From Arachidicoccus soli (lineage in GTDB: Bacteria; Bacteroidota; Bacteroidia; Chitinophagales; Chitinophagaceae), in contig NZ_CP032489.1 of assembly GCF_003600625.1 (NCBI RefSeq), forward strand, positions 4,030,001-4,094,000: 64,000 bases of DNA, given 5' to 3'. Below are positions 9,772-27,559 of this stretch, piece by piece (the first letter of the stretch is position 1; each line of letters starts with the position of its first letter). The position numbers were made by a program, and so were the translations under genes. The notes under the pieces are model-generated. The model saw only the letters and a program-made list of their open reading frames with translations. It did not search any database and was not told where the DNA came from.

Positions 9772-11013
9772 ATGCGACATTTACAATTTCTAAAAGCAGT
9801 ACTACTATATACTTTAACAGCGTTTGGTGGTGCACAGGGTCATTTTGCAATGATGCTAAAAACCTTTGTTCAGGAGAGAAAAGATATTACAGAGAAAGAA
9901 TTATTAGAATACAATGCTTTTTGTCAAATGCTTCCCGGGGCTTCTTCTTCTCAAACCATTACGCTCATAGGCTATAAACGAGGTGGATTATTATTGGCCA
10001 TCATAACATTAATAACCTGGATATTACCGGCAACCATTATAATGGGTGGTTTATCTTTTTTATTAGATTTTTTGAATGCGAAAGCTATTAATACAAAAGA
10101 AATTTTTAAGTATATCAAGCCCATGGCTGTAGGCTTTATTGCGTTTTCTGCTTTTAAATTATTAAAAATATCTGTTACCAATACCATTACACGCGTCATC
10201 TTGGTCTCTGCAACTATTATTACTTATTTATTGTTTAAAAGCCCTTGGGTTTTTCCTTCAGTAATTGTTGCCGCAGGTATTGCGACAAATTTTAGCAGTA
10301 AACGTATTCCTCAGCAAGAAATTCCACCCAAAAAAATACGCTGGGGAAATATTTTAATTTTCTTCGCAGTTTTCCTATTGGCTGCATTTTTTTCAGAAAC
10401 TGCGCGAAGAGAAAATTGGCCACAAAGAGGAAAGTTTAATTTGTTTGAAAACTGTTACCGCTTTGGCTCTCTCACGTTTGGTGGAGGAGATGTATTAGCA
10501 CCTCTTATGTATGGACAATATGTAGTGCGTCCTAATACCGTTCCCAAAACTAACAAAAATGTATTGAGCATGGGAAACGATGATTTTTTAACAGGATATG
10601 GAATGTTGAAAGCTATTCCGGGGCCAACTTTTTCTATAAGTGCTTTTGTTGGTGGAATGGTGCTAAAAAAGCAGGGGCTCTGGTCTCAATTTTGGGGATG
10701 TATTATCGCAACAGTTGCTATTTTTCTCCCCTCTACATTATTAATTTTATTCTTTTTCCCGGTATGGAATAATCTAAAAAAATATGCAGCTATTTATAGA
10801 TCCCTAGAAGGCATAAATGCCGCAGTTGTTGGAATTATATTTGCCTCTTCTTTTTATCTATTAAAAGATATTTCAGTGAATGTATTTGACGGAAGTATTG
10901 AGCATGTCATTAATCTTTGTACAATTGCCGGGACATTTATATTGCTTAGATACACAAAAATACGTGCTCCTTATATTGTGCTCTTATGTTTAGTTCTAGG
11001 TATTATATTTTAA
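9772..11013 (+). CDS. chrA: Chromate transporter (ChrA, two-domain)
   Basis: A 413-residue polytopic inner-membrane protein with two homologous halves. The first begins [23 protein letters not shown] with the PGASSSQT motif; the second has [13 protein letters not shown] and [17 protein letters not shown]. These paired FGG and PGP/PGA motifs define the CHR family, which exports chromate; many members have no tested substrate. The ATG at 9772 is preferred over the TTG at 9763. The gene stands alone, so a chromate role is a family inference. Confidence 0.9.
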
Positions 11014-11025
11014 TATAAATTATTA

Positions 11026-11601
11026 TTATAAATAATATTTATTTGATTCTATTTCACTATATACTCCATGGGGAAGTAAGTATTTAATATCTTTTCTTTC
11101 CTTTAATTGAGCTCTTATAAATGTAGCGGAAATGTCTAAAAGAGGCGCGTCAAGTAGTTCGTAATTGATGTTTTTTGTTGTTTCCGTATTTATTTCAAAT
11201 CCGGGTCGTCGGTAAACGATGAAAGAATAATTCTTAATTAATGTTTCGTAATTTTTCCATTTTGATAAATTGGTAAAACTGTCAGAACCTATTACTATAA
11301 CAAATTCATGTTGCGGATATTTTTCCTCTAAATACACAAGTGTGGTTATTGTGTAAGATGGTTTTGGCAATTTAAACTCTACATCCATTGCTCTAAACCT
11401 TTCGTTATCATCAATTGCTATATTTAATAAATGTAAGCGATCATATTCATTAAGAAGCGTATTAGATGATTTTAAAGGATTGTGAGGGGAAAGTACAAAC
11501 CAAACCTGTTTTAGGTCCGAGTTATTAACAACATGTTCTGCAATAATCATGTGACCAATATGTATCGGATTAAAGGAGCCAAAATATAACCCTATTTTCA
11601 T
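11026..11601 (-). CDS. nadD: Nicotinate-nucleotide adenylyltransferase
   Basis: A 191-residue nucleotidyltransferase that makes deamido-NAD from nicotinate mononucleotide and ATP. The HIGH-family motif appears as GSFNPIHIGH near residues 8-17, followed by GSDSFTNLSKWKNYE near 100, the PGFEI region and ISATFIRAQLKE near 160 (family ISxTxIR). ATG 11601 gives the standard N-terminus MKIGLYFGSFNP; an ATG at 11610 is also in frame. It follows feoA closely on the same strand. NadA, from the same pathway, lies at 15176. Confidence 0.94.
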   Translation of the reverse strand: MKIGLYFGSFNPIHIGHMIIAEHVVNNSDLKQVWFVLSPHNPLKSSNTLLNEYDRLHLLNIAIDDNERFRAMDVEFKLPKPSYTITTLVYLEEKYPQHEFVIVIGSDSFTNLSKWKNYETLIKNYSFIVYRRPGFEINTETTKNINYELLDAPLLDISATFIRAQLKERKDIKYLLPHGVYSEIESNKYYL

Positions 11602-11610
11602 CGCAAGCAT

Positions 11611-11835
11611 TTAAATTTCTTCTACTAAAATATATTCGGCTTCATTTAATCGCAGGCTAAGATTATACCCAACTACCGAAATAGAAATAGGATCTCCTAA
11701 TGGAGCTATTTGATCAACTTTGATAATTTCCCCCGGGATGCACCCCATTTCCATCAGTTTTATAAAAATTTCATTATTTACAAATTCCTTTATCACCACT
11801 GATTTTCCCACACCAATATCAGACAATTTCTTCAT
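11611..11835 (-). CDS. FeoA-domain protein
   Basis: A 74-residue SH3-like protein with the FeoA pattern: KLSDIGVGKSVVIKEF, then LMEMGCIPGEIIKVDQIAPLGDPISISVVGYNLSLRLNEAEYILVEE. FeoA proteins assist the FeoB ferrous-iron channel from the cytosol. No feoB lies in the window, so this may be a stand-alone regulator-like copy. Two ATG codons (11841, 11835) are possible. It sits ahead of nadD with a gap of about ten bases. Confidence 0.88.
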   Translation of the reverse strand: MKKLSDIGVGKSVVIKEFVNNEIFIKLMEMGCIPGEIIKVDQIAPLGDPISISVVGYNLSLRLNEAEYILVEEI

Positions 11836-11854
11836 AATCAATAATTAATATCCG

Positions 11855-11862
11855 CAAATTTA
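11855..11862 (-). promoter_or_regulatory. Minus-7 element of feoA-nadD
   Basis: TAAATTTG on the minus strand is a perfect TAnnTTTG match 14-20 bases before the feoA start codons. A minus-33 TTTG is not evident. Confidence 0.4.
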
Positions 11863-11931
11863 CTAGATTTAATCATTCATCTTATAATAATGAATTTTAT
11901 TTACGAATTTTGACAATTAAACAACAAAACA

Positions 11932-12360
11932 ATGAGTAAGGTGTTTTTTCATTATACAGAGCAATCTTTTCCCCTATCTAACAAAAAGGAAATAAAACAA
12001 TTTATTGAAATCCTTTTTCAATTAGAAAAGAAACCGCTTACCCGAATTGATTATATTTTTTGTTCAGATGAATATTTACTACAAATAAATAAGCAACATT
12101 TACAACATGATTATTACACTGATATTATAACGTTTGAACTAAGCCAGGATAATCACACCCAAGCAGAAATTTATATAAGTGTAGAAAGAGTAAAAGAAAA
12201 TGCCTATAATCTGTCAACAACATTTAAAAACGAAATATTACGTGTATTATTTCATGGGGCACTGCACTTATGTGGATATAAAGATAAATCTAAAAAGGAA
12301 GAAGAATTAATGCGAAAAAAAGAAGAAGAATACCTTGGAATGTATAATAATGATAAATAG
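11932..12360 (+). CDS. ybeY: Endoribonuclease YbeY (rRNA maturation factor)
   Basis: A 142-residue metal-dependent RNase involved in 16S rRNA 3'-end processing and ribosome quality control. The characteristic segment ILRVLFHGALHLCGYKDKSK lies near residues 105-124. It carries the first two metal-binding His of the family H-x3-H-x5-H motif, but the third position reads K-D rather than D-H, a variant I associate with other Bacteroidota. The upstream DIITFEL segment also fits. It is followed by a parS site and mnmG. Confidence 0.92.
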   Translation: MSKVFFHYTEQSFPLSNKKEIKQFIEILFQLEKKPLTRIDYIFCSDEYLLQINKQHLQHDYYTDIITFELSQDNHTQAEIYISVERVKENAYNLSTTFKNEILRVLFHGALHLCGYKDKSKKEEELMRKKEEEYLGMYNNDK

Positions 12361-12364
12361 CCAT

Positions 12365-12408
12365 TAAAATAAATATAGTGTTTCACGTGAAACACTATAT
12401 TTATTTTA
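12365..12408. promoter_or_regulatory. parS: parS centromere site inside a 44-bp perfect palindrome
   Basis: TGTTTCACGTGAAACA at 12379-12394 is identical to the canonical bacterial parS sequence bound by ParB (Spo0J). It is extended on both sides by AT arms that keep perfect symmetry over 44 bases. It lies in the 80-base gap between ybeY and mnmG, about 4 kb from the DnaA-box cluster. The hairpin could also act as a terminator after ybeY, but the exact 16-mer match makes the parS call strong. Confidence 0.93.
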
Positions 12409-12415
12409 GATAAAC

Positions 12416-12423
12416 TACCTTTG
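12416..12423 (+). promoter_or_regulatory. Minus-7 element of mnmG
   Basis: TACCTTTG matches TAnnTTTG exactly, 17 bases before the mnmG ATG. It lies only eight bases beyond the parS palindrome, so ParB spreading from parS could affect this promoter. Confidence 0.5.
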
Positions 12424-12440
12424 CAAATAAATAAAAATTA

Positions 12441-14306
12441 ATGTTCCAAGAGTATGATATAATTGTTGCTGGCGCAGGACATGCAGGTTGCGAAGCAGCT
12501 GCAGCTGCAGCAAATATGGGTAATAAAGTTTTACTCATTACAATGAATATGAATACAATTGCTCAAATGAGTTGCAACCCTGCAATGGGGGGAATAGCTA
12601 AAGGGCAAATTGTTAGGGAAATAGATGCAATGGGTGGTTATAGCGGAATTGTATCAGATAAAAGTATGATTCAGTTTAGAATGCTGAATAAAAGTAAAGG
12701 TCCCGCAATGTGGAGTCCACGTACACAAAATGACAGAATGCTATTTGCATTAACCTGGAGAGAAATGCTAGAGCATACAAATAACCTGGATTTTTACCAG
12801 GATATGGTACAGGGTTTATTGATAAAAGATGGGAAGGTAAATGGTGTAAAAACCGGTCTAGGTCATGAAATAAAAGCAAAAGCCATTGTAATTACAAGTG
12901 GAACCTTTTTAAATGGTATAATTCATATTGGGGAAAAACAATTTGGTGGTGGAAGAGTAGCAGAAAGAGCTGCAATAGGCATAACAGAGCAACTCGTTGA
13001 AAATGGATTTGAGAGCAATAGATTGAAAACAGGAACACCACCACGAGTAGATGCAAGAAGTCTTGATTATACAAAAATGGAACTTCAAGATGGAGATACA
13101 GAAATTATTGGATTTTCTTACATGGATATTAAAAAAATAAAGGCATCTGAACAATTACCATGTCATATTACTTATACCAACTCTACAGTACACGATATAT
13201 TAAAAACAGGTTTTGCACAAAGTCCTATGTTTACTGGAAGAATTGAAGGAACCGGTCCTAGATATTGCCCTAGTATAGAAGATAAAATAAATAGATTTGC
13301 AGACAGAGACAGACATCAATTATTCGTAGAACCCGAGGGTTTTAAAACGGTAGAAATATATGTAAACGGATTTTCAACTTCCCTACCTGAAGAAGTTCAG
13401 TATAAAGCTTTAAAAAGCATTCCAGGATTTGAAAATGTCAAAATGTTTAGGCCAGGTTATGCAATAGAATATGACTTTTTTCCACCAACACAGCTAAACG
13501 CAAATTTAGAAACAAAACTCATTAAAAACTTATTTTTTGCTGGCCAAATAAATGGCACAACAGGATATGAGGAAGCAGCTTGCCAAGGATTAATGGCAGG
13601 AATAAACGCCAGCCAAAATATCCATGAAAAAGAACCTGTAATCTTAAAAAGAAATGAAGCTTATATTGGCGTATTAATAGACGACCTAATCAATAAAGGT
13701 ACCGATGAACCCTACAGAATGTTTACCAGTAGAGCTGAATATAGAACTTTACTAAGGCAAGATAACGCAGATTTAAGATTGACAGAATTAAGCTATAATT
13801 TAGGCCTAGCAAAAGAAGACAGATATAATGCCGTTGTAAAGAAAAAGAATGATGTTAAAGAATTAATTAAAATATTGCAAGAATCTTCTTTAACTCCGGA
13901 AGAAATTAATCCATATTTAGTTAAAATAGGTTCTACACCAATAAATGAAAAACAAAGGATTTCCAAAATAGTATTACGCCCAGATGTCTTCTTAGATGAA
14001 TTATTAAAAAATATAAATAATATTAATATATTAAATAATTATAATATAAATATTATTCAACAAGCAGAGATTCAATTAAAATATGAACGTTATATTGAAA
14101 AGGAAGAAGAAATAGCCGCTCGTATTAATAAAATGGATGATTTAAATATTCCTTCAAGTTTTGATTATAATAAAATTATCGCTTTAGGCAATGAAGCAAG
14201 ACAAAAATTCCTAAAAATAAAGCCAAAAACTATTGGTCAGGCAAGCAGAATTAGTGGTATTAATCCTACAGATATTCAAATTCTTATGGTTCACATGGGT
14301 AGATAG
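12441..14306 (+). CDS. mnmG: tRNA uridine-5-carboxymethylaminomethyl modification enzyme
   Basis: A 621-residue FAD protein (GidA) that, with MnmE, modifies the wobble uridine of several tRNAs. The FAD-binding start DIIVAGAGHAGCEAA, the CNPAMGGIAKGQIVREIDAMGG block, TGTPPRVD, RYCPSIEDKI, TGYEEAACQGL and YRMFTSRAEYR are all in family order, and the C-terminal helical domain ends GINPTDIQILMVHMGR. mnmG is classically close to replication origins, which fits the parS site and the DnaA-box cluster nearby. mnmE is not in the window. Confidence 0.97.
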   Translation: MFQEYDIIVAGAGHAGCEAAAAAANMGNKVLLITMNMNTIAQMSCNPAMGGIAKGQIVREIDAMGGYSGIVSDKSMIQFRMLNKSKGPAMWSPRTQNDRMLFALTWREMLEHTNNLDFYQDMVQGLLIKDGKVNGVKTGLGHEIKAKAIVITSGTFLNGIIHIGEKQFGGGRVAERAAIGITEQLVENGFESNRLKTGTPPRVDARSLDYTKMELQDGDTEIIGFSYMDIKKIKASEQLPCHITYTNSTVHDILKTGFAQSPMFTGRIEGTGPRYCPSIEDKINRFADRDRHQLFVEPEGFKTVEIYVNGFSTSLPEEVQYKALKSIPGFENVKMFRPGYAIEYDFFPPTQLNANLETKLIKNLFFAGQINGTTGYEEAACQGLMAGINASQNIHEKEPVILKRNEAYIGVLIDDLINKGTDEPYRMFTSRAEYRTLLRQDNADLRLTELSYNLGLAKEDRYNAVVKKKNDVKELIKILQESSLTPEEINPYLVKIGSTPINEKQRISKIVLRPDVFLDELLKNINNINILNNYNINIIQQAEIQLKYERYIEKEEEIAARINKMDDLNIPSSFDYNKIIALGNEARQKFLKIKPKTIGQASRISGINPTDIQILMVHMGR

Positions 14307-14377
14307 TAAATTTACAATTTTATTAGTTCAACAATCTATGAAGAGTTAGTAATATTACTATCTACAAATTATTCTAT

Positions 14378-15175
14378 TTGAAAACCTATATTACCATAAA
14401 AGCATTATCAATTGCTCTTATACTTTGTTACACATCTAAATTATGTGCTCAAACAAGCGTAAAAGGCTATGTTTATGAAGATAAGTATAGAACGCCTATA
14501 GATTCAGTTGAAGTCTATAGTTACTCTGGAAATAAAACAATAAGCAAAGCAGATGGATCATATATCATTCCGGTAACAGGCTTAAAAGATTCCATTTGGT
14601 TTCGTTACAACAATAAGAACACGATTAAATATGCCATAGATACTATTAAAAATACCAACAATTTTGAAGTAAGAATATATTTACCAAATTATCTTAAACA
14701 AGATAATATTTTACCTACAGTTACTGTAGAAACACATAACTACATAAAGGATTCCATCTTTCTTAGAAATTTTTATTCCAAAATATTTAATTGGAAAAAA
14801 CCTTCACAAGCGCTTGGCGAAGGTGTAAGCGTAACACCAACCGGTGTAGGTGTAGATTTAGATGCGCTCGTAAATATGTTTAGATTTGGTTATAATAAAC
14901 GCCAAGAAGTCTATCACAAATTCGCCCTACAAATAGAGCAAGACAGATACATTGATCACCGTTTTACAAAAGAAAAAGTAGAAGCATTAACGGGTCTATA
15001 CGACACAGCCAGAGATGAATATATGAAACTCTATCGACCACAATATCAAGAACTACTTTTAATGAATGATATAGAACTTGGAAGATATATCCAAATAACC
15101 TACAAAAAGTATATTAAATATAAACAGCAAGAAAAAATAGAAGACAACATATTCTTAAGTCCTGAAGAAAAATAA
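14378..15175 (+). CDS. Secreted protein with carboxypeptidase-like regulatory domain, TTG start
   Basis: A 265-residue exported protein of unknown function. A signal peptide (about residues 1-24, cut after LCAQ) is followed by a beta domain (SVKGYVYEDKYRTPIDSVEVYSY...) resembling the carboxypeptidase-regulatory-like fold common in Bacteroidota surface proteins. A charged helical C-terminus follows, with EGVSVTPTGVGVDLDALVNMF near 148-168. TTG at 14378 is the likely start because it alone yields the signal peptide and no ATG lies nearby. The gene follows mnmG on the same strand and ends one base before the nadA stop. Confidence 0.75.
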   Translation: MKTYITIKALSIALILCYTSKLCAQTSVKGYVYEDKYRTPIDSVEVYSYSGNKTISKADGSYIIPVTGLKDSIWFRYNNKNTIKYAIDTIKNTNNFEVRIYLPNYLKQDNILPTVTVETHNYIKDSIFLRNFYSKIFNWKKPSQALGEGVSVTPTGVGVDLDALVNMFRFGYNKRQEVYHKFALQIEQDRYIDHRFTKEKVEALTGLYDTARDEYMKLYRPQYQELLLMNDIELGRYIQITYKKYIKYKQQEKIEDNIFLSPEEK

Positions 15176-16183
15176 TTATTTAATCAATCCAGAAGCTTTA
15201 CTGATCTCTAACATTCTAATAATAGGTTTACGCGCAGCTAAACGCAATTCTTCTTCCATTAAAATTTCCGGCTTTTCATATTTCATACATAAGTATAATT
15301 TTTCCAGCGTATTTAGTTTCATATAAGGGCAATCGTTACAAGCACAGGCATTATTCGGAGGCGCCGGTATAAATTTCTTTTGAGGTGAATCTTTCTCCAT
15401 CTGATGCAAGATGCCGGCTTCTGTAGCAACAATAAATTGAGTTGCTTCGTCCTTTTTAGCAAAATTCAATATTTCTGTAGTACTACCTATAAAATCAGCT
15501 TCTTTTAAAATAATCTCTTCACATTCCGGATGTGCTAAGATTTTAGCCTCAGGATAAGCCTGTTTAAGCTTCAAAATCTTCTCCAAACTAAAAATCTCGT
15601 GAACCATACAGGAACCATTCCAAAGGAGCATATTTCGCCCCGTTTGCTTATTTATAAAAGCACCTAAATTTTTATCCGGCGCAAATATAATGGGTTGGTT
15701 TTCAGGAATACTTTCTACAATTTTTTTAGCATTACTACTTGTACAAATAATATCACTCAAAGCTTTTATCTCTGCAGTACAATTAATATAAGAAATAACA
15801 ATATGATTCGGATGAGCTTCTTTAAAGTTTCTAAATGCTTCGGTAGGTGCACTATCGGCTAATGAACAACCTGCATGCAAATCAGGTAAAACAACTTTTT
15901 TATTTGGGTTTAAAATCTTCGCTGTTTCTGCCATAAAATGTACACCCGCAAATACAATCATATCTGCATCTGTTTGCGCAGCTTGTTGTGCCAAGCCTAA
16001 ACTATCACCAATATAATCGGCCACATCCTGAATATCTGCTTCCTGATAATAATGTGCCAAGATAATAGCGTTCTTTTCTTTTTTGAGTTTTTCAATTTCC
16101 GCAAACAAATCCAAAGTTGGAGAAACGGTCATATCCATAAAGCCTTTTTTTTCTAAATTTTTTGTTGCCTCTAAAATGTTCAT
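15176..16183 (-). CDS. nadA: Quinolinate synthase
   Basis: A 335-residue 4Fe-4S enzyme that condenses iminoaspartate with dihydroxyacetone phosphate to quinolinate, the first committed NAD precursor. The family motifs are [47 protein letters not shown] (first cluster Cys), AHPECE, and [20 protein letters not shown] near the C-terminus with the last cluster Cys. nadB and nadC are not in the window. Its start lies at the edge of the candidate oriC region. Confidence 0.96.
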
Positions 16184-16606
16184 ATCTGCTGTAATAATTA
16201 TTATACTATTATTTATTTAAAAAAGCCTATTACTATTAAGGGTGTGGATTTCTTGAAAACTTTGTTATACACACTTATCAAAGTTAATTAGATTTTCATT
16301 ATCCACAACTATCCACAATTTTATTTACATGAAGATTACGATGTTTATTGCATTTTAGATGATTTTTTAAAAATTGTGAATAAGATATTCTGCAATGCAC
16401 ATTTTGTAATTCACATGTTTCCACAGTTAATTAACTATGTGGAAAAAGTATATAAAAACAGAAGAAATCTGCATTTTAAAAATCTTTCGGTTTTTGTTAA
16501 TTTTATTTCCACATTATTTAATTGTTATCTAAATGTTATCTACAATTTTTATAGGTAATACCCACCTTACGTTAATAAGTGTTTCACGAAAAAAAACAGC
16601 TATCCA
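16184..16606. other. oriC: Candidate chromosomal replication origin (oriC)
   Basis: This gene-free stretch carries a dense set of DnaA-box-like 9-mers: perfect TTATCCACA at 16299-16307, and single-mismatch boxes at 16265-16273 (TTATACACA), 16309-16317 (CTATCCACA), 16375-16383 (minus, TTATTCACA), 16438-16446 (minus, TTTTCCACA) and 16536-16544 (TTATCTACA). Weaker sites lie near 16243, 16407, 16418 and 16505. Long A/T-only segments between them could be the unwinding element. A canonical parS lies 3.8 kb away and mnmG is adjacent. Against it: flanking genes on both sides mostly read toward the site, and dnaA is not in the window. Confidence 0.7.
16580..16588 (+). promoter_or_regulatory. parS half site
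   Basis: TGTTTCACG equals the first nine bases of parS, then diverges into an A run. It lies at the edge of the DnaA-box cluster. It may be a weak or decayed ParB site, or chance. Confidence 0.3.
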
Positions 16607-16646
16607 TAAAAAAACCGGCTATCACTTCTGTGCAGCCGGGTTTTTT
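16607..16646 (-). terminator. Terminator after nuoA
   Basis: CCGGCT and AGCCGG pair around a 13-base loop, flanked by an A run on one side and a T run on the other. On the minus strand it lies just past the nuoA stop at 16665; the symmetric flanks would also stop transcription in the other direction, isolating the origin region. Confidence 0.75.
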
Positions 16647-16664
16647 AATAATGTATACTATTTC

Positions 16665-17069
16665 TTAATCTTCCCAATTCAAAGCACCCTTTTTTATTAT
16701 ATAAATAAAACCTATTAGGAAAAAACCTACAAAGAGTAGAATTTCGTAAAAACCTTTCCAGGCTAAACCACGGAAATTTACAGCGTAAGGATAAAAGAAA
16801 ATCACCTCCACATCAAATAAAACAAACAAAATGGCAACAAGAAAATATTTGATAGCCATAGGTTGACGTGCATTACCGTGTGTAGAAATACCACTGGAAA
16901 AGCTTTCTAATTTATCGTTTGTTTTTCTTTTTGGACCCAACAATGAAGATACAAAAATCATCGTTGCTACAAAACCGGCAGCAAATATGATTTGAATAAT
17001 TATAGGAATATAGTTGGTAGCAACTTCCGGATTTGTAATAGTTGTTAATGACTGATTTAATAAGTACAT
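16665..17069 (-). CDS. nuoA: NADH-quinone oxidoreductase subunit A
   Basis: A 134-residue membrane subunit of complex I with three predicted helices. Family features are SSLLGPKRKTNDKLESFSSGI near residues 42-62 (usual K-x2-YESG pattern), RQPMAIKYFLVAILFVLFDVEVIFFYPYAV with the conserved acidic DVE, and GFFLIGFIYIIKKGALNWED at the end. The next gene downstream is nadA beyond the DnaA-box region; no nuoB-N genes lie near, so this subunit is separated from the rest of complex I. It has its own promoter element and terminator. Confidence 0.93.
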   Translation of the reverse strand: MYLLNQSLTTITNPEVATNYIPIIIQIIFAAGFVATMIFVSSLLGPKRKTNDKLESFSSGISTHGNARQPMAIKYFLVAILFVLFDVEVIFFYPYAVNFRGLAWKGFYEILLFVGFFLIGFIYIIKKGALNWED

Positions 17070-17086
17070 TCTTTTAAATTGAGTAA

Positions 17087-17094
17087 CAAAAATA
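17087..17094 (-). promoter_or_regulatory. Minus-7 element of nuoA
   Basis: TATTTTTG on the minus strand matches TAnnTTTG, 18 bases before the nuoA start. No clear minus-33 element is seen. Confidence 0.4.
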
Positions 17095-17111
17095 GTATAT
17101 ATCTATAAAAG

Positions 17112-17146
17112 AAAAAACTCTCTTAAATTTTTAAGAGAGTTTTTAT
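17112..17146 (-). terminator. Terminator after the TPR gene
   Basis: AAAAACTCTCTTAA and TTAAGAGAGTTTTT form a long hairpin with a short loop and T-rich ends, between the TPR-protein stop and the nuoA promoter. Confidence 0.8.
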
Positions 17147-17158
17147 AGCTAAAATTTA

Positions 17159-18886
17159 TTATTTAGTAGAATCTTTCGGTCTTTTTTCCGGATGTTTTTG
17201 ATAATATTCTTCCAATTGTTTCTGTTGTTCTACTGCTTTTTGTAATTGATCTACTGCAGATTTTGCAGCATCATTCGTGGGATCTAAATTGGCAATTTTT
17301 TGAAAAATCTCCAATCCTTTTGCATAGTCTTTTACATCATATACATAATAAGAACCAAGTTTACCATATTCTGCAATGATTAATTCTTTGTTTTTAACTG
17401 TGTCTTTACTTAAGAAGTTTATATAATCATTGATTGCAGGAATGGCTTGTACAATCGTACTTGTATCTTCTGCTAATTTAGTCTGTTCTAAATAATAGTA
17501 ACCATATGCTTGCTTCGGATATTTCGTTTTATATAAAGTGAACATTGTATCTGCCGTAGGTAGATAAACTTTATTGACTTTCCCGGCTTCTAAAGCTGCT
17601 TGACCTAGGTTGAAAATATCAAGGTTTGTACGGGAAGCAGTATCTTTTGCATTATATAACTTCCTAAGCCAATCATATTTAGCAATGGGTTTATTTGCTT
17701 TATCCAAAGCATAAGAGATGGAATCGGCATACATTGCTTTATCTGAAGCAAGGGTATCCATATCATAAGCCTTGGTCAAATAAGTAACAGCTGTATCCGC
17801 CATTTCTGGGATATCTTTATAGATGAAACCTGCAAAAGCATAGTCATAAGGCTGTATATTTCCAGAAGCAACAGTAGTAAAGAATTTTTTCGCATAGGTT
17901 ACTGCTTGGGTAGTATCTCCTAAACGGTGGTAATCTGCTGCCATTAATAAAGGTAAATGAGAATAAGTAGCACAGCTTCCTGCTTCCATTTGTTTAGCCT
18001 TATTAATAGATTCTTGGTAACTACCTGTTTGGAATAAGTAGTCTGCCTGATAATATTGTACTTCACAACCGTTATCAGAATTAGCTACATATTTGTCTAA
18101 ATATTCTTTAGCCTTGTTTACATCTTTGTCTTTGTAATAATTAAAATAGCCCAAATAGATAGGTGCAAAAGTTGGATCCGCAGTAATACCTGTTTGATAC
18201 CATTGGTTCATTACATCAAAATTGTCCTGAGACTGAAAGATTAAACCTAAATGATAATCTGCCGCGGCAAATTTCGGATCACGGTTAGAAGCCTGTGTAA
18301 ATGCAGAATAGGCATTACCACCCTGATCGCCACCTAGCTTTAAGAAATTCAGACCTAAATATAATGCGGAGTTTGGATCTGTTTTATCCAAATTCATTGC
18401 TTCCTGTAATTTTGGAATAGCATAAGCGGGATCACCTAAATCTTTGTCACCATAAGCGCTTGCGCGACCAATGGCAGTACGTATAGCAGCTTGATCTACT
18501 TCTTTGTGACGCCCTTTTATCTTGTCGGCCAAAGTAATTGCCTGTTCAAATTTTTGTTCTGCGGCATCATTTTTATGATTGATATAATCAATTTCACCCA
18601 GGCCCACCAAAATCCATGGGCTGTTCAAACTTGCAGCTTTTTGATATAAAGCCAATGCTTTACCCGTACCGTCGGTTTCTCCATTTTTATTTTCCAAGTA
18701 TACTTGCCCCAACCAGTAAATACTTTGACCATCTTGAGGGTTTTTCTGAACTACTTGTTGGAATGTTTGTTCTGCGCTTGTGAATTTACCATAGTAGAGG
18801 GCTTGAATACCATCCTCTAGTTTTTGCGCTGAGGCAAATGCTATACCACTTGCTAAAGCCAGAAAACTTAAAACAATCTTCTTCAT
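17159..18886 (-). CDS. Secreted tetratricopeptide-repeat protein
   Basis: A 575-residue exported protein with a signal peptide (residues 1-20, ending ASAQ) and many TPR-like helical repeats, for example YYGKFTSAEQTFQQVVQKNPQDGQSIYWLGQVY near 32-64 and the DPNSALYLGLNFLKL and DPKFAAADYHLGLIF repeats. It ends in a basic, glutamine-rich tail (QKHPEKRPKDSTK). TPR proteins scaffold complexes; the location is probably periplasmic. It is followed on the same strand by a terminator and preceded upstream by a PstS-like lipoprotein, which may share its function. The specific role is unknown. Confidence 0.85.
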   Translation of the reverse strand: MKKIVLSFLALASGIAFASAQKLEDGIQALYYGKFTSAEQTFQQVVQKNPQDGQSIYWLGQVYLENKNGETDGTGKALALYQKAASLNSPWILVGLGEIDYINHKNDAAEQKFEQAITLADKIKGRHKEVDQAAIRTAIGRASAYGDKDLGDPAYAIPKLQEAMNLDKTDPNSALYLGLNFLKLGGDQGGNAYSAFTQASNRDPKFAAADYHLGLIFQSQDNFDVMNQWYQTGITADPTFAPIYLGYFNYYKDKDVNKAKEYLDKYVANSDNGCEVQYYQADYLFQTGSYQESINKAKQMEAGSCATYSHLPLLMAADYHRLGDTTQAVTYAKKFFTTVASGNIQPYDYAFAGFIYKDIPEMADTAVTYLTKAYDMDTLASDKAMYADSISYALDKANKPIAKYDWLRKLYNAKDTASRTNLDIFNLGQAALEAGKVNKVYLPTADTMFTLYKTKYPKQAYGYYYLEQTKLAEDTSTIVQAIPAINDYINFLSKDTVKNKELIIAEYGKLGSYYVYDVKDYAKGLEIFQKIANLDPTNDAAKSAVDQLQKAVEQQKQLEEYYQKHPEKRPKDSTK

Positions 18887-18978
18887 TTTCTTCGATTTGA
18901 TTTTTTATTTATTTGTTTAATGAAATATTGCAAACAGCAGGTCTACAATAATTCTTTCCAAGGTTATAAAATTTTAAG

Positions 18979-19953
18979 CTACTTTTTTTTGGTAGCAAAA
19001 TCATTTACTGTCCTAATTGTAAAGTTCATTTTTGCAGGAACTAAATTTCCTCTTCTAAAAATTAATTGCCCCCGTTGAAAACTTAAAAAGTTATAGAACG
19101 AGGTTCCCAAACCAATATAATTGTCCTTTAATACACAATACAAAGGACGTACCAAAGGATATTGCATATTATAAATAGTGGATTGAGATGGTCTGGCAAA
19201 TACGCCGGTTGAATCCGGTATCTTACACTCAACATAAGCTAAATGTACTTTGTTGAAATAAGCTAATTGTTCTGGATCATCTGCATTCCCCACCCAACTC
19301 GAACCCACAAAACCAACAGCGTTTTTATTTGAAGCAACTAAATCAATCACTTGTTTACTACCTTTTGCGCCACTTACATTATTACCAAAAGATTTTCCAT
19401 GAGTAATAGAGTCTAATAAATACCTTACAGTGCTTGTTGCATTTTCCCCGTCTAAAATTACTTGATAGGGTTGTTTATTATTGCTGGTGAGCATCTTGTC
19501 CAATTCTTTTAGGGAAAACACAGAATCACTTGCATCTGCATTTACAATCATGGAAACAGCATCAAAAGCAATTATAGAAAAGCGAGGTCTATGACCTAAT
19601 TTACTATTATAATATTTGCTTTCATCTTCCTTAAGACCTCTGGCAACGATAATCATATTGGTGCTATCTTTCTCAAAATCCCGAAAGCAATCTGCTTCCG
19701 GTTCATATTTTACTATAATATGTGCTTTTGGAAAAGAAGATTCAAATACCATTATTTGTTGGCTGATGATTGGTTCAAAACTTTCATCCACGAAAAGTCT
19801 TAAAGTCCCTTGCTGAGGGTCAGCTTCAAGATCTTTTGTTCCATTTTTATTACTATTGCATGCACAAAAACTACAAAGAACTAGGCTAAAAATAAGTAGA
19901 AATTTTGTTGCATGAAAAAAAATCCTGCTTTTTTGTTTGTTGTAAAATAGCAT
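18979..19953 (-). CDS. PstS-like substrate-binding lipoprotein
   Basis: A 324-residue protein whose hydrophobic N-terminus ends in a Cys-rich lipobox-like segment (LCSFCAC near residues 26-32). The mature part follows the phosphate-binding (PstS) type II fold: LRLFVDESFEPIISQQ near 50, a signature TSTVRYLLDSITHGKSF region near 165, and a late QYPLVRPLYCVLKDNYIG then VGTSFYNFLSFQRGQLIFRR-like end. No pstCAB transporter genes are near, so it may be a stand-alone sensor or binding protein. In the same orientation lie an 81-residue membrane protein upstream and the TPR protein downstream; the three may be one unit. Confidence 0.8.
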   Translation of the reverse strand: MLFYNKQKSRIFFHATKFLLIFSLVLCSFCACNSNKNGTKDLEADPQQGTLRLFVDESFEPIISQQIMVFESSFPKAHIIVKYEPEADCFRDFEKDSTNMIIVARGLKEDESKYYNSKLGHRPRFSIIAFDAVSMIVNADASDSVFSLKELDKMLTSNNKQPYQVILDGENATSTVRYLLDSITHGKSFGNNVSGAKGSKQVIDLVASNKNAVGFVGSSWVGNADDPEQLAYFNKVHLAYVECKIPDSTGVFARPSQSTIYNMQYPLVRPLYCVLKDNYIGLGTSFYNFLSFQRGQLIFRRGNLVPAKMNFTIRTVNDFATKKK

Positions 19954-19982
19954 TTTTATTTATTTAACACCTTTTTTAAACT

Positions 19983-20228
19983 TTAATAGTCTCTTTTAAT
20001 GCCACGATAAAGCCTAAAACCTCCATATAAAACACAAAGGCCTCCAAAAATATTTAAAATTAATGGGTCTTTACTTTGCATCAATCCTTGTAAAGATTGA
20101 AAATGTTTACCAAAGAACATTAAAAAACCGATGCCCAGTATGATGAGCGCCATGACTATGTCTTTTACTGCACGCATATTGCTATAACGCTTGCGTTGTT
20201 GTTTTCTAAAATCGTCATTTATATCCAT
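19983..20228 (-). CDS. Small membrane protein of unknown function
   Basis: An 81-residue protein: a basic, polar N-terminus (DDFRKQQRKRYSNMR), a helix near residues 22-40 (DIVMALIILGIGFLMFFG), a short loop, and a second helix near 57-73 (ILNIFGGLCVLYGGFRLY) with a basic end. It is not assigned to a named family. It lies 29 bases ahead of the PstS-like gene on the same strand, so the two are probably co-transcribed. Confidence 0.65.
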   Translation of the reverse strand: MDINDDFRKQQRKRYSNMRAVKDIVMALIILGIGFLMFFGKHFQSLQGLMQSKDPLILNIFGGLCVLYGGFRLYRGIKRDY

Positions 20229-20292
20229 AAACTCCCTTTTCTATTTATAGATGCAAAATTTATCTTTTTAACTAAATACAAAAGATAAATAT

Positions 20293-23011: not shown

Positions 23012-25429
23012 TTATTTTCTAATTTCTGCATTTAGCTCTTTTTCAAAACCCAGAATCAGCTTATTAATCATTGCATCAATTTCCTTGTCGGTTAAGGTTT
23101 TTTGTTCATCCAAAAATGTAAAATTAATCGCCAGTGATTTTTTATTTTCTCCTAATTTTTCGCTTTCAAAAATATCAAATAAACGTGTTTCTTTTAACAG
23201 GGTTAAATTTGATTTTTTAATCACAGCATAAATGTTTTCAAACAAAACAGCCTTATCCACTACCATTGCTAAATCACGTTGTACCGAAGGAAAACGAGCA
23301 ACTTCTTTATATAAGATAGTTTCTTTTTCTTTTAATTTGATTATTGCTTGAAAATCGATATCCACAAAATAAATGGAGGATTTTATGTCAAACAGTTCCT
23401 TCGCTTTTTTATTTACTTCAATTACCTTGCCTAAACTGGTTTTATTTACAGAAAATGCGACCCCCGATTCATTTTCGAGAGTTGTATATTTTATATTAGA
23501 AAGCCCACAAAGTGTTAGAATGCTTTGTGCCAGGCCTTTTGCACGGAAAAAATCAAACTGTTTCCCCTTTTCTTTCCATTCGTCTTCATGGGTTTTCCCG
23601 GCAATATATAGTGCTAAATGTTCTGTTTCAAAATATTTCCCAATACTGGTAGATCTATAGGTTTTACCAAATTCGAATAATTGAAGATTGGAGTTTTTTC
23701 TATTTAAATTATAAGCGAGACATTCCAAACCAGTTTCCAGCATTGAGGGCCGCATTAAATCTAAATCGGCGCTCAGACTGTTTATCATTTTTACGGAAGT
23801 TGCTAATATTTCTTCTGAATAATATTTACTATTGGTAATAGAGTTGGTCATTATTTCGTTGAACCCCTGCCCTACTAAGAACCCAGCAATTTTTTCGCGC
23901 GTATCTTCCTTTAAGCCCAAGGTATCAATTGCCGGAGTAATATGAATAGATGAAGGAATATCAATATTGTCCAGCCCGTCTATTCGTAAAATTTCTTCTA
24001 CGATATCGGCCGGTAAAGAAATATCAGGTTTGCTAAGTGGGACAGCTACCCAAACTTCATCAAGTGATTCCTTAATTTTTTCGAAACCCAGTGCTTCCAG
24101 TACATTAATAATCGCATCATGGTGATAGTTTTTCCCACTTAATTTTTTTAAATAATGAAATTTTAAAGCGACTTGGGTTCTTTCTTTTGGAGAAGGATAT
24201 AAATCGACAATATCTGAGCTAATTTGACCACCGGCAATTTCCTTTATCAACAATGCCGCGCGCTTTAGCGCATATAGAGTATTGGAAATGTCTACACCTT
24301 TTTCAAAGCGGGCTGCCGCATCGGTACGCAGGCCATGGCGCATTGATGTTTTTCGGATTGTAGAAGGATGGAAATAAGCACTTTCTAAAAAAATACTTTT
24401 AGTATTTTCGCTCACGCCACTTTTGAGACCGCCATATACACCTGCAATACACATACCTTCTTCTTTATTGCAAATCATTAAATCATCTGCCGAAAGTTTT
24501 ATTTCTTTATTGTCGAGCGTAATAAATGGAGTGTTTTCCGGAAGGTTTTTGACAACAATTGAATTGCCAGAAACCATTGCTGCATCAAAGGCGTGGAGCG
24601 GTTGACCCGTTTCATGCAATACAAAGTTTGTAATATCAACAATATTATTGATAGGTCTTAATCCAATTGATTTTAATTTGTTTTGTAACCAATCCGGAGA
24701 AGAAGCCACCGTAATATTACTGATAGAAATGCCCGTATACCGCGGAGCGGCTTCAGTATTTTCTACAGAGACGGTAATTGGTAAGCTGTTATTATCGGGC
24801 TTAAAACTATTTACGGACGGTGTTTTGTATTTAAAGTTGCCATTGTTATGCCGCGTAAGGTAGGCGCATACATCGCGCGCTACACCGATATGGCTCATGG
24901 CATCCATTCGGTTGGGCGTAAGACCTATTTCGTAAGTATAATCTTCATAAACCGAAAAGTATTCAGAAGCCGCCATACCCACTTTTACCTCTTTGGGTAA
25001 AACCATAATGCCTGCATGGCTTTGACCAAGACCCAGCTCGTCTTCTGCGCAGAGCATTCCAAAGCTTTCTTCACCACGAATCTTTGCTACTTTCATTGTG
25101 AGGGGATCTCCGGAACTTGGAAAAATAGTCGTGCCCACTGTAGCAACAACTACTTTCTGACCAACGGCAACATTAGGTGCGCCACAAACAATTTTAAGTG
25201 GTACTTCATTCCCAATATTTACAGTCGTTAATTTTAGTTTATCTGCATTGGGATGCTGTTCACAACTAAGTACTTCACCTATTATGAGACCTGCGAGGCC
25301 ACCTTTTACACTTTGATATTTTTCTAAGCTTTCCACTTCTAAACCAATGGAGGTAAGAATTCTAGAAAGTTTTTCCGGATCTGTTTTTTCCGGAAGGTAT
25401 TCGCTTAACCAGTTGTAAGAAATTGTCAT
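23012..25429 (-). CDS. pheT: Phenylalanyl-tRNA synthetase beta subunit
   Basis: An 805-residue subunit that charges tRNA-Phe together with PheS. From the N-terminus: the start MTISYNWLSEYLPEKTDPEKLS, an OB-fold tRNA-binding domain near residues 40-150 (GEVLSCEQHPNADKLKLTTVNIG), the B3/4 editing region with GLTPNRMDAMSHIGVARDV, then B5 and the catalytic-like core (GQGFNEIMTNSITNSKYY). The C-terminal FDX-ACB anticodon domain ends with RFPSVQRDLAMVVDK and LTDKEIDAMINKL. Length is typical. pheS is not in the window. Confidence 0.97.
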   Translation of the reverse strand: MTISYNWLSEYLPEKTDPEKLSRILTSIGLEVESLEKYQSVKGGLAGLIIGEVLSCEQHPNADKLKLTTVNIGNEVPLKIVCGAPNVAVGQKVVVATVGTTIFPSSGDPLTMKVAKIRGEESFGMLCAEDELGLGQSHAGIMVLPKEVKVGMAASEYFSVYEDYTYEIGLTPNRMDAMSHIGVARDVCAYLTRHNNGNFKYKTPSVNSFKPDNNSLPITVSVENTEAAPRYTGISISNITVASSPDWLQNKLKSIGLRPINNIVDITNFVLHETGQPLHAFDAAMVSGNSIVVKNLPENTPFITLDNKEIKLSADDLMICNKEEGMCIAGVYGGLKSGVSENTKSIFLESAYFHPSTIRKTSMRHGLRTDAAARFEKGVDISNTLYALKRAALLIKEIAGGQISSDIVDLYPSPKERTQVALKFHYLKKLSGKNYHHDAIINVLEALGFEKIKESLDEVWVAVPLSKPDISLPADIVEEILRIDGLDNIDIPSSIHITPAIDTLGLKEDTREKIAGFLVGQGFNEIMTNSITNSKYYSEEILATSVKMINSLSADLDLMRPSMLETGLECLAYNLNRKNSNLQLFEFGKTYRSTSIGKYFETEHLALYIAGKTHEDEWKEKGKQFDFFRAKGLAQSILTLCGLSNIKYTTLENESGVAFSVNKTSLGKVIEVNKKAKELFDIKSSIYFVDIDFQAIIKLKEKETILYKEVARFPSVQRDLAMVVDKAVLFENIYAVIKKSNLTLLKETRLFDIFESEKLGENKKSLAINFTFLDEQKTLTDKEIDAMINKLILGFEKELNAEIRK

Positions 25430-25478
25430 TAAAAATGTCTTTAATAAAATTGACGGAAAACTCCGGCAAAATGAAGTG

Positions 25479-25486
25479 CAAATCTA
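25479..25486 (-). promoter_or_regulatory. Minus-7 element of pheT
   Basis: TAGATTTG on the minus strand matches TAnnTTTG, 49 bases before pheT. No good minus-33 element is seen. Confidence 0.4.
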
Positions 25487-25678
25487 CATTATAATTCATA
25501 ATTGAAGAATGGGATGTTTTGCATCTTCACATAAATCTGTACCGTTTATCAATTTAAGCAGGATGGGTTGTTTTCTTTTATATAACTTTATTGCCTATAA
25601 AGTACAAATTCAGATTTATTGAAAAAGAATTTTCTTTAGATAAATATTGAGTTAATAACAATAATTAAAACTTTTAAG

Positions 25679-27559
25679 ATGAGAAAGAGTATTATTCTCT
25701 TAGTGGGTTCCTTATTCCTTGGACTCAATTTCCTGGTAGCACAAGATTTGTATATGCCTCGTAATATTGTAAAGGCTTTTAAAAACGGCACCCGCTCTTT
25801 AGATGGGAACCCCGGCAAAAATTATTGGCAAAATAAAGGCGTTTATGATATTAATGTAATGGTTAATCCGGAAACCAAAGCAGTTACAGGTGAAGAAACA
25901 ATTGCCTATACGAATAATAGCCCGGATACTTTAAAGATGATTGCGATAAGGTTTGTCAACAACTTACACAAACCGGAAGCGCCAAGATCAGGATATGCGA
26001 GTGCTGACTTTTTAGATTCCGGATTAACGATTACTTCTTTTTGGATAAATGACCTGCAATATAATATAGATGCAAAAAATTGGGGAACAGTTGTCGCCAT
26101 TAGGTTAAAAACGCCATTATTGCCGCACTCCTCGACGACATTGAAAATCAATTGGAACTATCCTTTATCTAAGCAAAGTGGAAGAGAAGGACAAATCGAT
26201 TCTACCACTTTTTATTGCGCTTATTCTTATCCACGGGTTTCGGTGTATGATGATTACAATGGATGGGACATGCTGCCACATAGCGACAGGCAAGAGTTTT
26301 ATAACGACTTTAATGATTACAAACTTAATGTAAAAGTACCAAAGGATTATGTGGTATGGGCTACCGGAAATCTTTTGAATGCCGATGAAGTGTTGCAACC
26401 GGCAATAGCAAAGCGCTTGAAGGACTCTTATCTATCGGACAGTGTGATACATATTGCGACACATAATGATATGCAACAGAAAAAAGTAACAAGACAGTAT
26501 AGTTGGAATATATGGAAATTTGAAGCAAATGATATTACAGATGTTTGTTTTGGTACCAGTAACCATTATGTTTGGGATGGCGCGAGCACAATTGTTGATC
26601 GCAAGACAGGAAGACGTACCAGTATGCAAGCGGCATATAATGAGACATCAGAAGATTTTCACCATTCTGTGGCATTTGGTCAAAATGCTTTGAAATATTT
26701 CTCCACGCAATATCCCGGAGTGCCATTTCCATTCCCCAAGATGACGGCATTTCAAGGTTTTGCCGATATGGAGTATCCTATGATGGTCAATGACTCACAT
26801 GTGGATAATATGCCTTTCGCACAGATGTTGCAAGACCATGAAATGGCGCATTCTTATTTTCCTTTTTATATGGGTATCAATGAAACACGCTATGCCTATA
26901 TGGACGAAGGATGGGCAACCACCTTTGAGTATTTGATTGGTCAAGAAGAATATGGCAAAGCACATGCCGATGCAGAATACAAGGCATTCAGGGTAAAAAG
27001 TTGGATTGGTGACCCGTCAACAGAAGAAGACCAACCCATTATTACGATGTCCACACAAGTAAGCGGTGCCGGGTATGGCAACAACTCTTATGTAAAGGCA
27101 TCACTAAGTTATTTGGCCTTGAAAGATATGTTGGGCGATGCTTTATTTAAGAAAGCTTTACATCATTATATGGATGTGTGGCATAGCAAACATCCGATTC
27201 CTTGGGATTATTTTAATGCAATGAGCGCCGGAGCAGGCGAAAACCTGAACTGGTTTTTTCAAAACTGGTTTTTTACCAATAATTATATTGACCTAAAGAT
27301 TAATGGTGTGAAAAAGCAAAAGGACGATTATGTAGTGGAGATAAGAAATGTCGGAGGATTTGCCATTCCCTTTGATATAGTAATGACTTATGCTGATGGC
27401 CAAACGGCAAGAATACATGAGACTCCGGCAATTTGGAAAGGCAATGAGCAAGTGCAACGGATAAAAATTCCTTCCCGACAAGCCATTCAATCTATTCAGT
27501 TAGATGGCGGTATATTTATGGACTATACGCCAACAGATAATGTGTGGAAGGCTGAGTAA
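25679..27559 (+). CDS. M1 family metallopeptidase, secreted
   Basis: A 626-residue zinc aminopeptidase-like protein with a signal peptide (residues 1-21, ending LVAQ). The zinc site HEMAH spans residues 387-391, with the third ligand Glu410 in DEGW, exactly the HExxH-x18-E spacing of gluzincins. The GxMEN exopeptidase motif appears as GFADMEYPMM near 360-369, so the usual Asn is replaced by Tyr. A beta-sandwich N-terminal domain and a C-terminal FQNWFFTNNYIDLKI region fit secreted Bacteroidota M1 enzymes. It likely trims peptides in the periplasm or on the surface. It stands alone and ends in a clear terminator. Confidence 0.93.
   Translation: MRKSIILLVGSLFLGLNFLVAQDLYMPRNIVKAFKNGTRSLDGNPGKNYWQNKGVYDINVMVNPETKAVTGEETIAYTNNSPDTLKMIAIRFVNNLHKPEAPRSGYASADFLDSGLTITSFWINDLQYNIDAKNWGTVVAIRLKTPLLPHSSTTLKINWNYPLSKQSGREGQIDSTTFYCAYSYPRVSVYDDYNGWDMLPHSDRQEFYNDFNDYKLNVKVPKDYVVWATGNLLNADEVLQPAIAKRLKDSYLSDSVIHIATHNDMQQKKVTRQYSWNIWKFEANDITDVCFGTSNHYVWDGASTIVDRKTGRRTSMQAAYNETSEDFHHSVAFGQNALKYFSTQYPGVPFPFPKMTAFQGFADMEYPMMVNDSHVDNMPFAQMLQDHEMAHSYFPFYMGINETRYAYMDEGWATTFEYLIGQEEYGKAHADAEYKAFRVKSWIGDPSTEEDQPIITMSTQVSGAGYGNNSYVKASLSYLALKDMLGDALFKKALHHYMDVWHSKHPIPWDYFNAMSAGAGENLNWFFQNWFFTNNYIDLKINGVKKQKDDYVVEIRNVGGFAIPFDIVMTYADGQTARIHETPAIWKGNEQVQRIKIPSRQAIQSIQLDGGIFMDYTPTDNVWKAE

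Follow-up and report, generated by a model that had tools for sequence, protein, structure and literature searches.

A probable chromosomal replication origin with a conserved basal unwinding system beside nadA in Arachidicoccus soli

The gene-free interval between nadA and nuoA in Arachidicoccus soli raises the question of whether replication of the chromosome starts there. A preliminary description had proposed it as a candidate oriC on account of its DnaA boxes, with the arrangement of the flanking genes as the main doubt. The window analysed here, a stretch of 64,000 nucleotides, corresponds to C1:4030001-4094000 of a genome assembled as one contig (4,099,663 bases), and positions are those of the window unless the contig is named. 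The interval itself spans 481 bp (16184-16664). On the grounds of its box cluster, a strict motif that is single in the genome, conservation in relatives and a location at the bottom of the GC skew, we consider it very probable that 16184-16606 is the chromosomal oriC, with a conserved basal unwinding system (BUS).

The features of the locus are listed in Table 1. They include mnmG (gidA), a gene that is often found near oriC. The closest relatives of the NadA protein in our collection are from Chitinophagaceae, at 73-76% identity. Zero matches were returned by an Rfam scan of 15000-18000, and zero terminators by a terminator scan of 16000-16800, even though the sequence at about 16606-16650 does show an A/T-flanked inverted repeat rich in G/C.

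Table 1. Features of the nadA-nuoA interval and its surroundings (window positions)
Feature	Position	Strand	Basis
Probable oriC region: box cluster and putative unwinding region, gene-free	16184..16606	.	boxes, skew bottom, conservation in relatives
nadA, quinolinate synthase, left neighbour	15176..16183	-	TIGR00550, 402 bits
nuoA, right neighbour	16665..17069	-	PF00507, 109.5 bits; under NCBIfam equivalog cut-offs
mnmG (gidA)	12441..14306	+	TIGR00136, 840.6 bits
parS site TGTTTCACGTGAAACA, 16-mer	12379..12394	.	motif match; 46 bp before mnmG
A/T-rich stretch, 83.7% A+T, putative unwinding element, ends at nadA start codon	16184..16226	-	sequence
Four DnaA-trios TAATAGTAATAG	16227..16238	-	sequence; box+trio pattern in 32/34 nadA-upstream sequences
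Trio-proximal DnaA box AAATCCACA, 2 mismatches, 4 bp (CCCT) from trios	16243..16251	-	offset mean 2.41 mismatches, n=32
Upstream tandem box position TTTTCAAGA, degenerate, 3 mismatches, 12 bp from trios	16251..16259	-	offset mean 2.19 mismatches, n=32
DnaA box TTATACACA, 1 mismatch	16265..16273	+	consensus match
Putative nadA promoter -7 element TAACTTTG	16279..16286	-	TAnnTTTG type; directed through BUS into nadA
DnaA box TTATCCACA, perfect	16299..16307	+	consensus match
DnaA box CTATCCACA, 1 mismatch	16309..16317	+	consensus match
DnaA box TTATTCACA, 1 mismatch	16375..16383	-	consensus match
DnaA box TTTTCCACA, 1 mismatch	16438..16446	-	consensus match
DnaA box TTATCTACA, 1 mismatch	16536..16544	+	consensus match

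A cluster of DnaA boxes at the bottom of the GC skew

Scored against TTATCCACA, which we take to be the DnaA-box consensus, 16184-16664 contains six boxes with at most one mismatch, where 1000 dinucleotide shuffles give a mean of 0.20 and a maximum of 3. The dense cluster previously described, with one perfect and at least five single-mismatch boxes on both strands, is therefore borne out at 16265-16544 as a departure from chance in non-coding DNA, and seven further two-mismatch sites start within 16184-16606. Genome-wide, sites with at most one mismatch are in mild excess (864 + 842; the reversed pattern has 739 + 732), so it is clustering, not number, that constitutes the signal. With six boxes in 300 bp, the cluster is the densest in the 1,239,663 bases of the genome that were scanned (30%, window included). 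The runners-up in the same 30% have four boxes within 300 bp, mostly repeats of TTATCCAAA, at about 1.567-1.569 Mb; they correspond to several small groups of this repeat on both strands at 13681-18951 of locus L153 (contig ~1.5637-1.5690 Mb). The A/T-only runs that had also been pointed out do exist, with lengths of 18, 14 and 14 bp, but are unexceptional: 1217 of the window's 63,958 43-mers match or exceed the A/T content of the 43-mer at 16184.

A comparison with the GC-skew minimum had been suggested as a check, and its outcome favours the site. The cumulative skew was sampled in forty 20-kb pieces at 100-kb spacing plus the window, rather than over the full chromosome; on these samples the minimum falls between 3.8 and 4.1 Mb, whereas the maximum is around 1.3-1.5 Mb. 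The arms are thereby unequal (~1.45 and 2.65 Mb), which counts against the site. A continuous scan of 419,663 bases, which begins at 3.80 Mb, crosses the contig end and stops at 0.12 Mb, has its minimum at 4,055,345 (window 25,345), 9 kb to the right of the site. The bottom is broad (~4.03-4.13 Mb) and has two dips with a rise between them, the second at contig ~20,200. This second dip is made by a block at contig 10,000-20,200 (L082), where the skew is strongly negative over some 10 kb and coincides with a long - strand nuo block.

Given such a broad bottom, replication could start elsewhere within it, for instance in the divergent intergenic region 25430-25678, next to which the fine minimum lies, or at a displaced SurA/PpiD-like gene (contig 20,541), in keeping with the second dip. 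We regard this as extremely improbable. Region 25430-25678 is without any box of at most one mismatch and was rejected as a candidate for that reason; within 25000-26500 there are only two, at 26040 and 26227, and the locus of the displaced gene (L292, 4.0 kb) likewise has two only. The strict BUS motif introduced below lies at neither alternative site. Moreover, the long reading frames between 17 and 25.4 kb are on the - strand, against the right-hand fork, and could themselves shift the local skew minimum, which may account for the 9-kb offset.

Skew was sampled in relatives as well. In congener G005 (20 samples) its sign switches to positive somewhere in the interval 2.366-2.45 Mb, which includes the corresponding site at 2.376 Mb. 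In congener G003 (20 samples) the minimum is flat over 2.70-2.98 Mb, and the site, at 2.707 Mb, is at one end of it. The left-hand samples are negative in 5/5 cases and the right-hand ones positive in 3/5 in Chitinophaga sp. E66 (G197); in G059 the right-hand samples are positive in 5/5, the left-hand ones mixed, and the skew is near zero around the site. A further genome (G106), represented by a contig of 2.3 Mb rather than a whole chromosome, gave no support either way.

Anatomy and conservation of the basal unwinding system

On the - strand, starting at 16259, the nadA-proximal end of the interval reads TTTTCAAGA-AATCCACA-CCCT-TAATAGTAATAG, after which the A/T-rich stretch runs as far as the ATG of nadA (16183). 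This is the order of elements given for the BUS in the accounts of PMC6669920 and PMC8287927, namely one or more DnaA boxes, DnaA-trios and A/T-rich DNA, and on this basis we read it as a BUS. As outlined in PMC8287927, spacers peak at 10-13 bp, tandem boxes are the commonest layout, and the upstream box is the nearer to consensus; the gaps of 12 and 4 bp seen here agree with that peak and that layout. The search rule stated there asks for at least three trios no more than 16 bp from a DnaA box; here four trios lie 4 bp from AAATCCACA, a sequence that we count as a box at two mismatches to our assumed consensus. One point against an oriC reading is that the tandem boxes have three (upstream) and two (proximal) mismatches here. 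The upstream box is nearer consensus in some relatives, reading TTATCCAGA in congeners G001 and G002.

To follow the conservation of this arrangement, 260 bp upstream of nadA were taken from the window, from five congeners and from 28 of 80 loci with NadA relatives, picked as Chitinophagaceae-like by title or similarity, which gave 34 sequences in all. A box+trio pattern matches 32 of the 34, against 0 in 200 shuffle sets, and the two that it misses (L023 and L024) show visible variants of the motif. Among the offsets -60 to -1 from the trios, only -21 and -13 average fewer than four mismatches, and both are box-like (2.19 and 2.41; n=32); the tandem positions are kept across the set, but the upstream box has three mismatches in A. 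soli. Selection by the pattern contributes to the value for the -13 box and in part conditions the column counts over the 32 sequences; the -21 box lies outside the pattern. A looser pattern found no motif directly upstream of nadA in 23 other loci of the 80, mostly from other families; together the two scans covered 28 + 23 of the 80 loci.

A strict form of the motif, THMACASNNNTARTARTARTRG, is present in 90 of 195 family genomes, at 91 sites altogether, as compared with 6 matches for its reversed control (counted by eye). Only one of the 90 has more than a single site, and in A. soli the motif occurs exactly once, at 16227-16248. The other 105 family genomes are without the strict motif; among the minority of them that were inspected, some have variants (G002). 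An earlier pattern was dropped as too loose, since it gave many chance-like and control matches and missed the A. soli site by one base. Thirty of the 91 strict-motif sites were inspected as loci, and 26 of these lie directly upstream of nadA. Three loci (L236, L237 and L240) lack nadA, and there the motif adjoins a SurA/PpiD-like gene, with 3, 4 and 2 boxes within 700 bp; a class-level search added a fourth site of this type (L282, one box within ~700 bp). The gene name, in which "PpiD" is our assumption, is based on the Pfam family SurA_N_2 in L237, on a tblastn identity of 38% in L282, and on resemblance by eye in L236 and L240. The site in L244 has zero boxes and looks like a chance match.

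Beyond the family, the strict motif does not rise above background. It occurs in 11 of 295 genomes of the class, against 10 control matches (by eye); five of the 11 belong to the family itself, which has seven genomes in that sample, and the other six are at control level. In five genomes behind loci in our collection there are two matches, both in Chitinophaga, and no match in the Pedobacter, Olivibacter and Sphingobacterium genomes among them.

The box cluster, whose absence from close relatives the preliminary description had named as a point that would tell against an origin, is present in 5/5 congeners (weakest in G003, with four boxes) and in more distant relatives. In some relatives (L003, L025 and L242) only one box with at most one mismatch is found upstream. 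We also observed nine DnaA-like boxes in 500 bp at ~12571 of locus L014, from a Chitinophaga MAG, 2.6 kb to the downstream side of the nadA start.

Gene order, dnaA and parS around the site

The usual layout in relatives is a SurA/PpiD-like gene on one side of oriC and nadA on the other. The former is on the box side and transcribed away from the origin in 25 of 28 relatives' loci, in 23 of those 25 less than ~1 kb from the nadA start. With both genes pointing away from the origin, this is a normal divergent layout. In A. soli the SurA/PpiD-like gene is displaced to 74 kb right of the origin, and nuoA is in its place. It is displaced in the congeners as well, to 101-106 kb left (G001 and G005), 137 kb (G002) and 543 kb (G003), and in G004 it is on another contig. 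The odd strand layout that had counted against the candidate fits a rearrangement in which the SurA/PpiD-like gene has moved. As a side observation, nuoA is alone beside oriC: nuoB lies ~72 kb off (contig 19,691-20,278), together with what appears by eye to be the remainder of the nuo operon (nuoD, nuoL, nuoN), adjoining the displaced SurA/PpiD-like gene. No nuoB was found in the ~4-kb loci of the SurA/PpiD-like gene in any of the five congeners.

An origin adjacent to dnaA or dnaN is common, but it is neither universal nor defining. The remark that dnaA is not close to the site was correct: it is at C1:1,706,421, 1.76 Mb away. The DnaA protein is genuine, with a TIGR00362 score of 513.3 bits, all three Pfam DnaA domains and the GGRDHTTV helix, which we take to be a DnaA motif, and the dnaA locus (3.5 kb) has one box only with at most one mismatch. 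In the single-contig congeners the distance between dnaA and the site is 1.94 Mb (G005), ~2.3 Mb (G001) and 0.79 Mb (G003). With distances of 0.8-2.3 Mb in four single-contig genomes of the genus, dnaA is a poor guide to oriC. The record of the G003 contig C1 begins close to dnaA (Pfam match, 409-894), whereas 2.707 Mb is where the origin probably lies; choosing the orientation by dnaA thus misplaces it.

A canonical parS site and mnmG within 4 kb of the candidate, as had been reported, were both recovered. The 16-mer in Table 1 was identified by what we take to be the parS motif. Even with one mismatch allowed, the genome has a single copy of the 14-base core of this site, but also a single copy of a reversed control; it is therefore the position of parS, not the number of sites, that is informative. 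The core occurs once each in A. soli and in G005, ~3.9 kb from the BUS, and is absent from the other four of the six genus genomes (A. soli included in the six). A one-mismatch form, GTTTCACGTGGAAC, is found 3-5 kb from the nadA start in 4 of 28 relatives' loci, and parB is at 2.74 Mb.

If the B. subtilis system is taken as a guide to DnaA binding, filament polarity, opening and helicase loading, DnaA encoded 1.76 Mb away would bind both the spread boxes (16265-16544) and the tandem ones next to the trios (16259-16243). Its filament would then extend onto the four trios at 16238-16227, on the strand reading 5'-TAATAGTAATAG-3', the A/T-rich stretch 16226-16184 beside nadA would open, and helicase would be loaded there for both forks. 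The B. subtilis oriC, as presented in PMC6669920 and PMC8287927, likewise has boxes (DnaA-boxes 6/7) beside repeated trios, A/T-rich DNA, and further boxes farther off. The A. soli locus differs in that it is not beside dnaA, its trio-adjacent boxes are farther from consensus, its trio side ends at nadA, and the action of DnaA is presumed by analogy.

The origin predicted by Ori-Finder in Elizabethkingia meningoseptica, also one of the Bacteroidetes (PMC8994065), similarly combines a box cluster and A/T-rich elements with a distant dnaA, but differs in that the part of that report describing it names three boxes and mentions no trios. The E. coli origin appears, according to PMC6669920, not to keep the box-trio arrangement that is present here. 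While E. coli oriC is beside gidA (mnmG), which is close in A. soli too, it is nadA that adjoins the site in A. soli.

A putative nadA promoter within the probable origin

The sequence TAnnTTTG is the -7 type element of Bacteroidetes promoters. In 23 of the 32 sequences an element of this type, TANNTTTG, begins 30-60 bp ahead of the trios, 22 of them at -48 to -50, against a mean of 0.85 and a maximum of 5 in a shuffle control. The other nine lack the exact element, several having A in place of the final G.

That a conserved promoter-like element inside the cluster is aimed at nadA would also fit a different explanation, in which the cluster serves as a DnaA-controlled nadA promoter region or for DnaA titration, with replication starting at another place. 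This we consider very improbable. The BUS is kept in the four loci without an adjacent nadA, boxes included, whereas the promoter element is absent from 4/4 of them. On this small number of loci, the promoter seems tied to nadA, and the BUS appears to be independent of it. The skew bottom, furthermore, is at this site's part of the chromosome, and DnaA-trios are an unwinding signal that, to our knowledge, is not known for titration sites.

For the probable oriC, this conserved element, which appears to direct transcription across the unwinding site, is the unusual feature. If transcription starts a few bases past it, the nadA leader contains the tandem boxes, the trios and the A/T-rich stretch. 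We tentatively raise the possibility, doubtful at present, that a conserved promoter in oriC transcribes through the BUS into nadA, that the BUS is thereby the 5' leader of nadA family-wide, and that NAD supply is coupled to initiation. Transcription beside the origin is found at E. coli oriC too. Were this so, DnaA assembling on the BUS would silence nadA; alternatively, transcription of nadA would promote or impede opening.

No published description of this origin was found among the titles and abstract openings listed, and DoriC may already list origins of the family. The components are already known; the present analysis contributes the family-level definition of oriC and the link with nadA. 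At the sequence level, oriC of the family can be defined as box-SNNN-TARTARTARTRG, usually beside nadA. Such a definition matters for growth-rate estimates from read depth, for genome orientation and for oriC plasmids, and the loci that keep the BUS without an adjacent nadA are a natural experiment separating origin from promoter.
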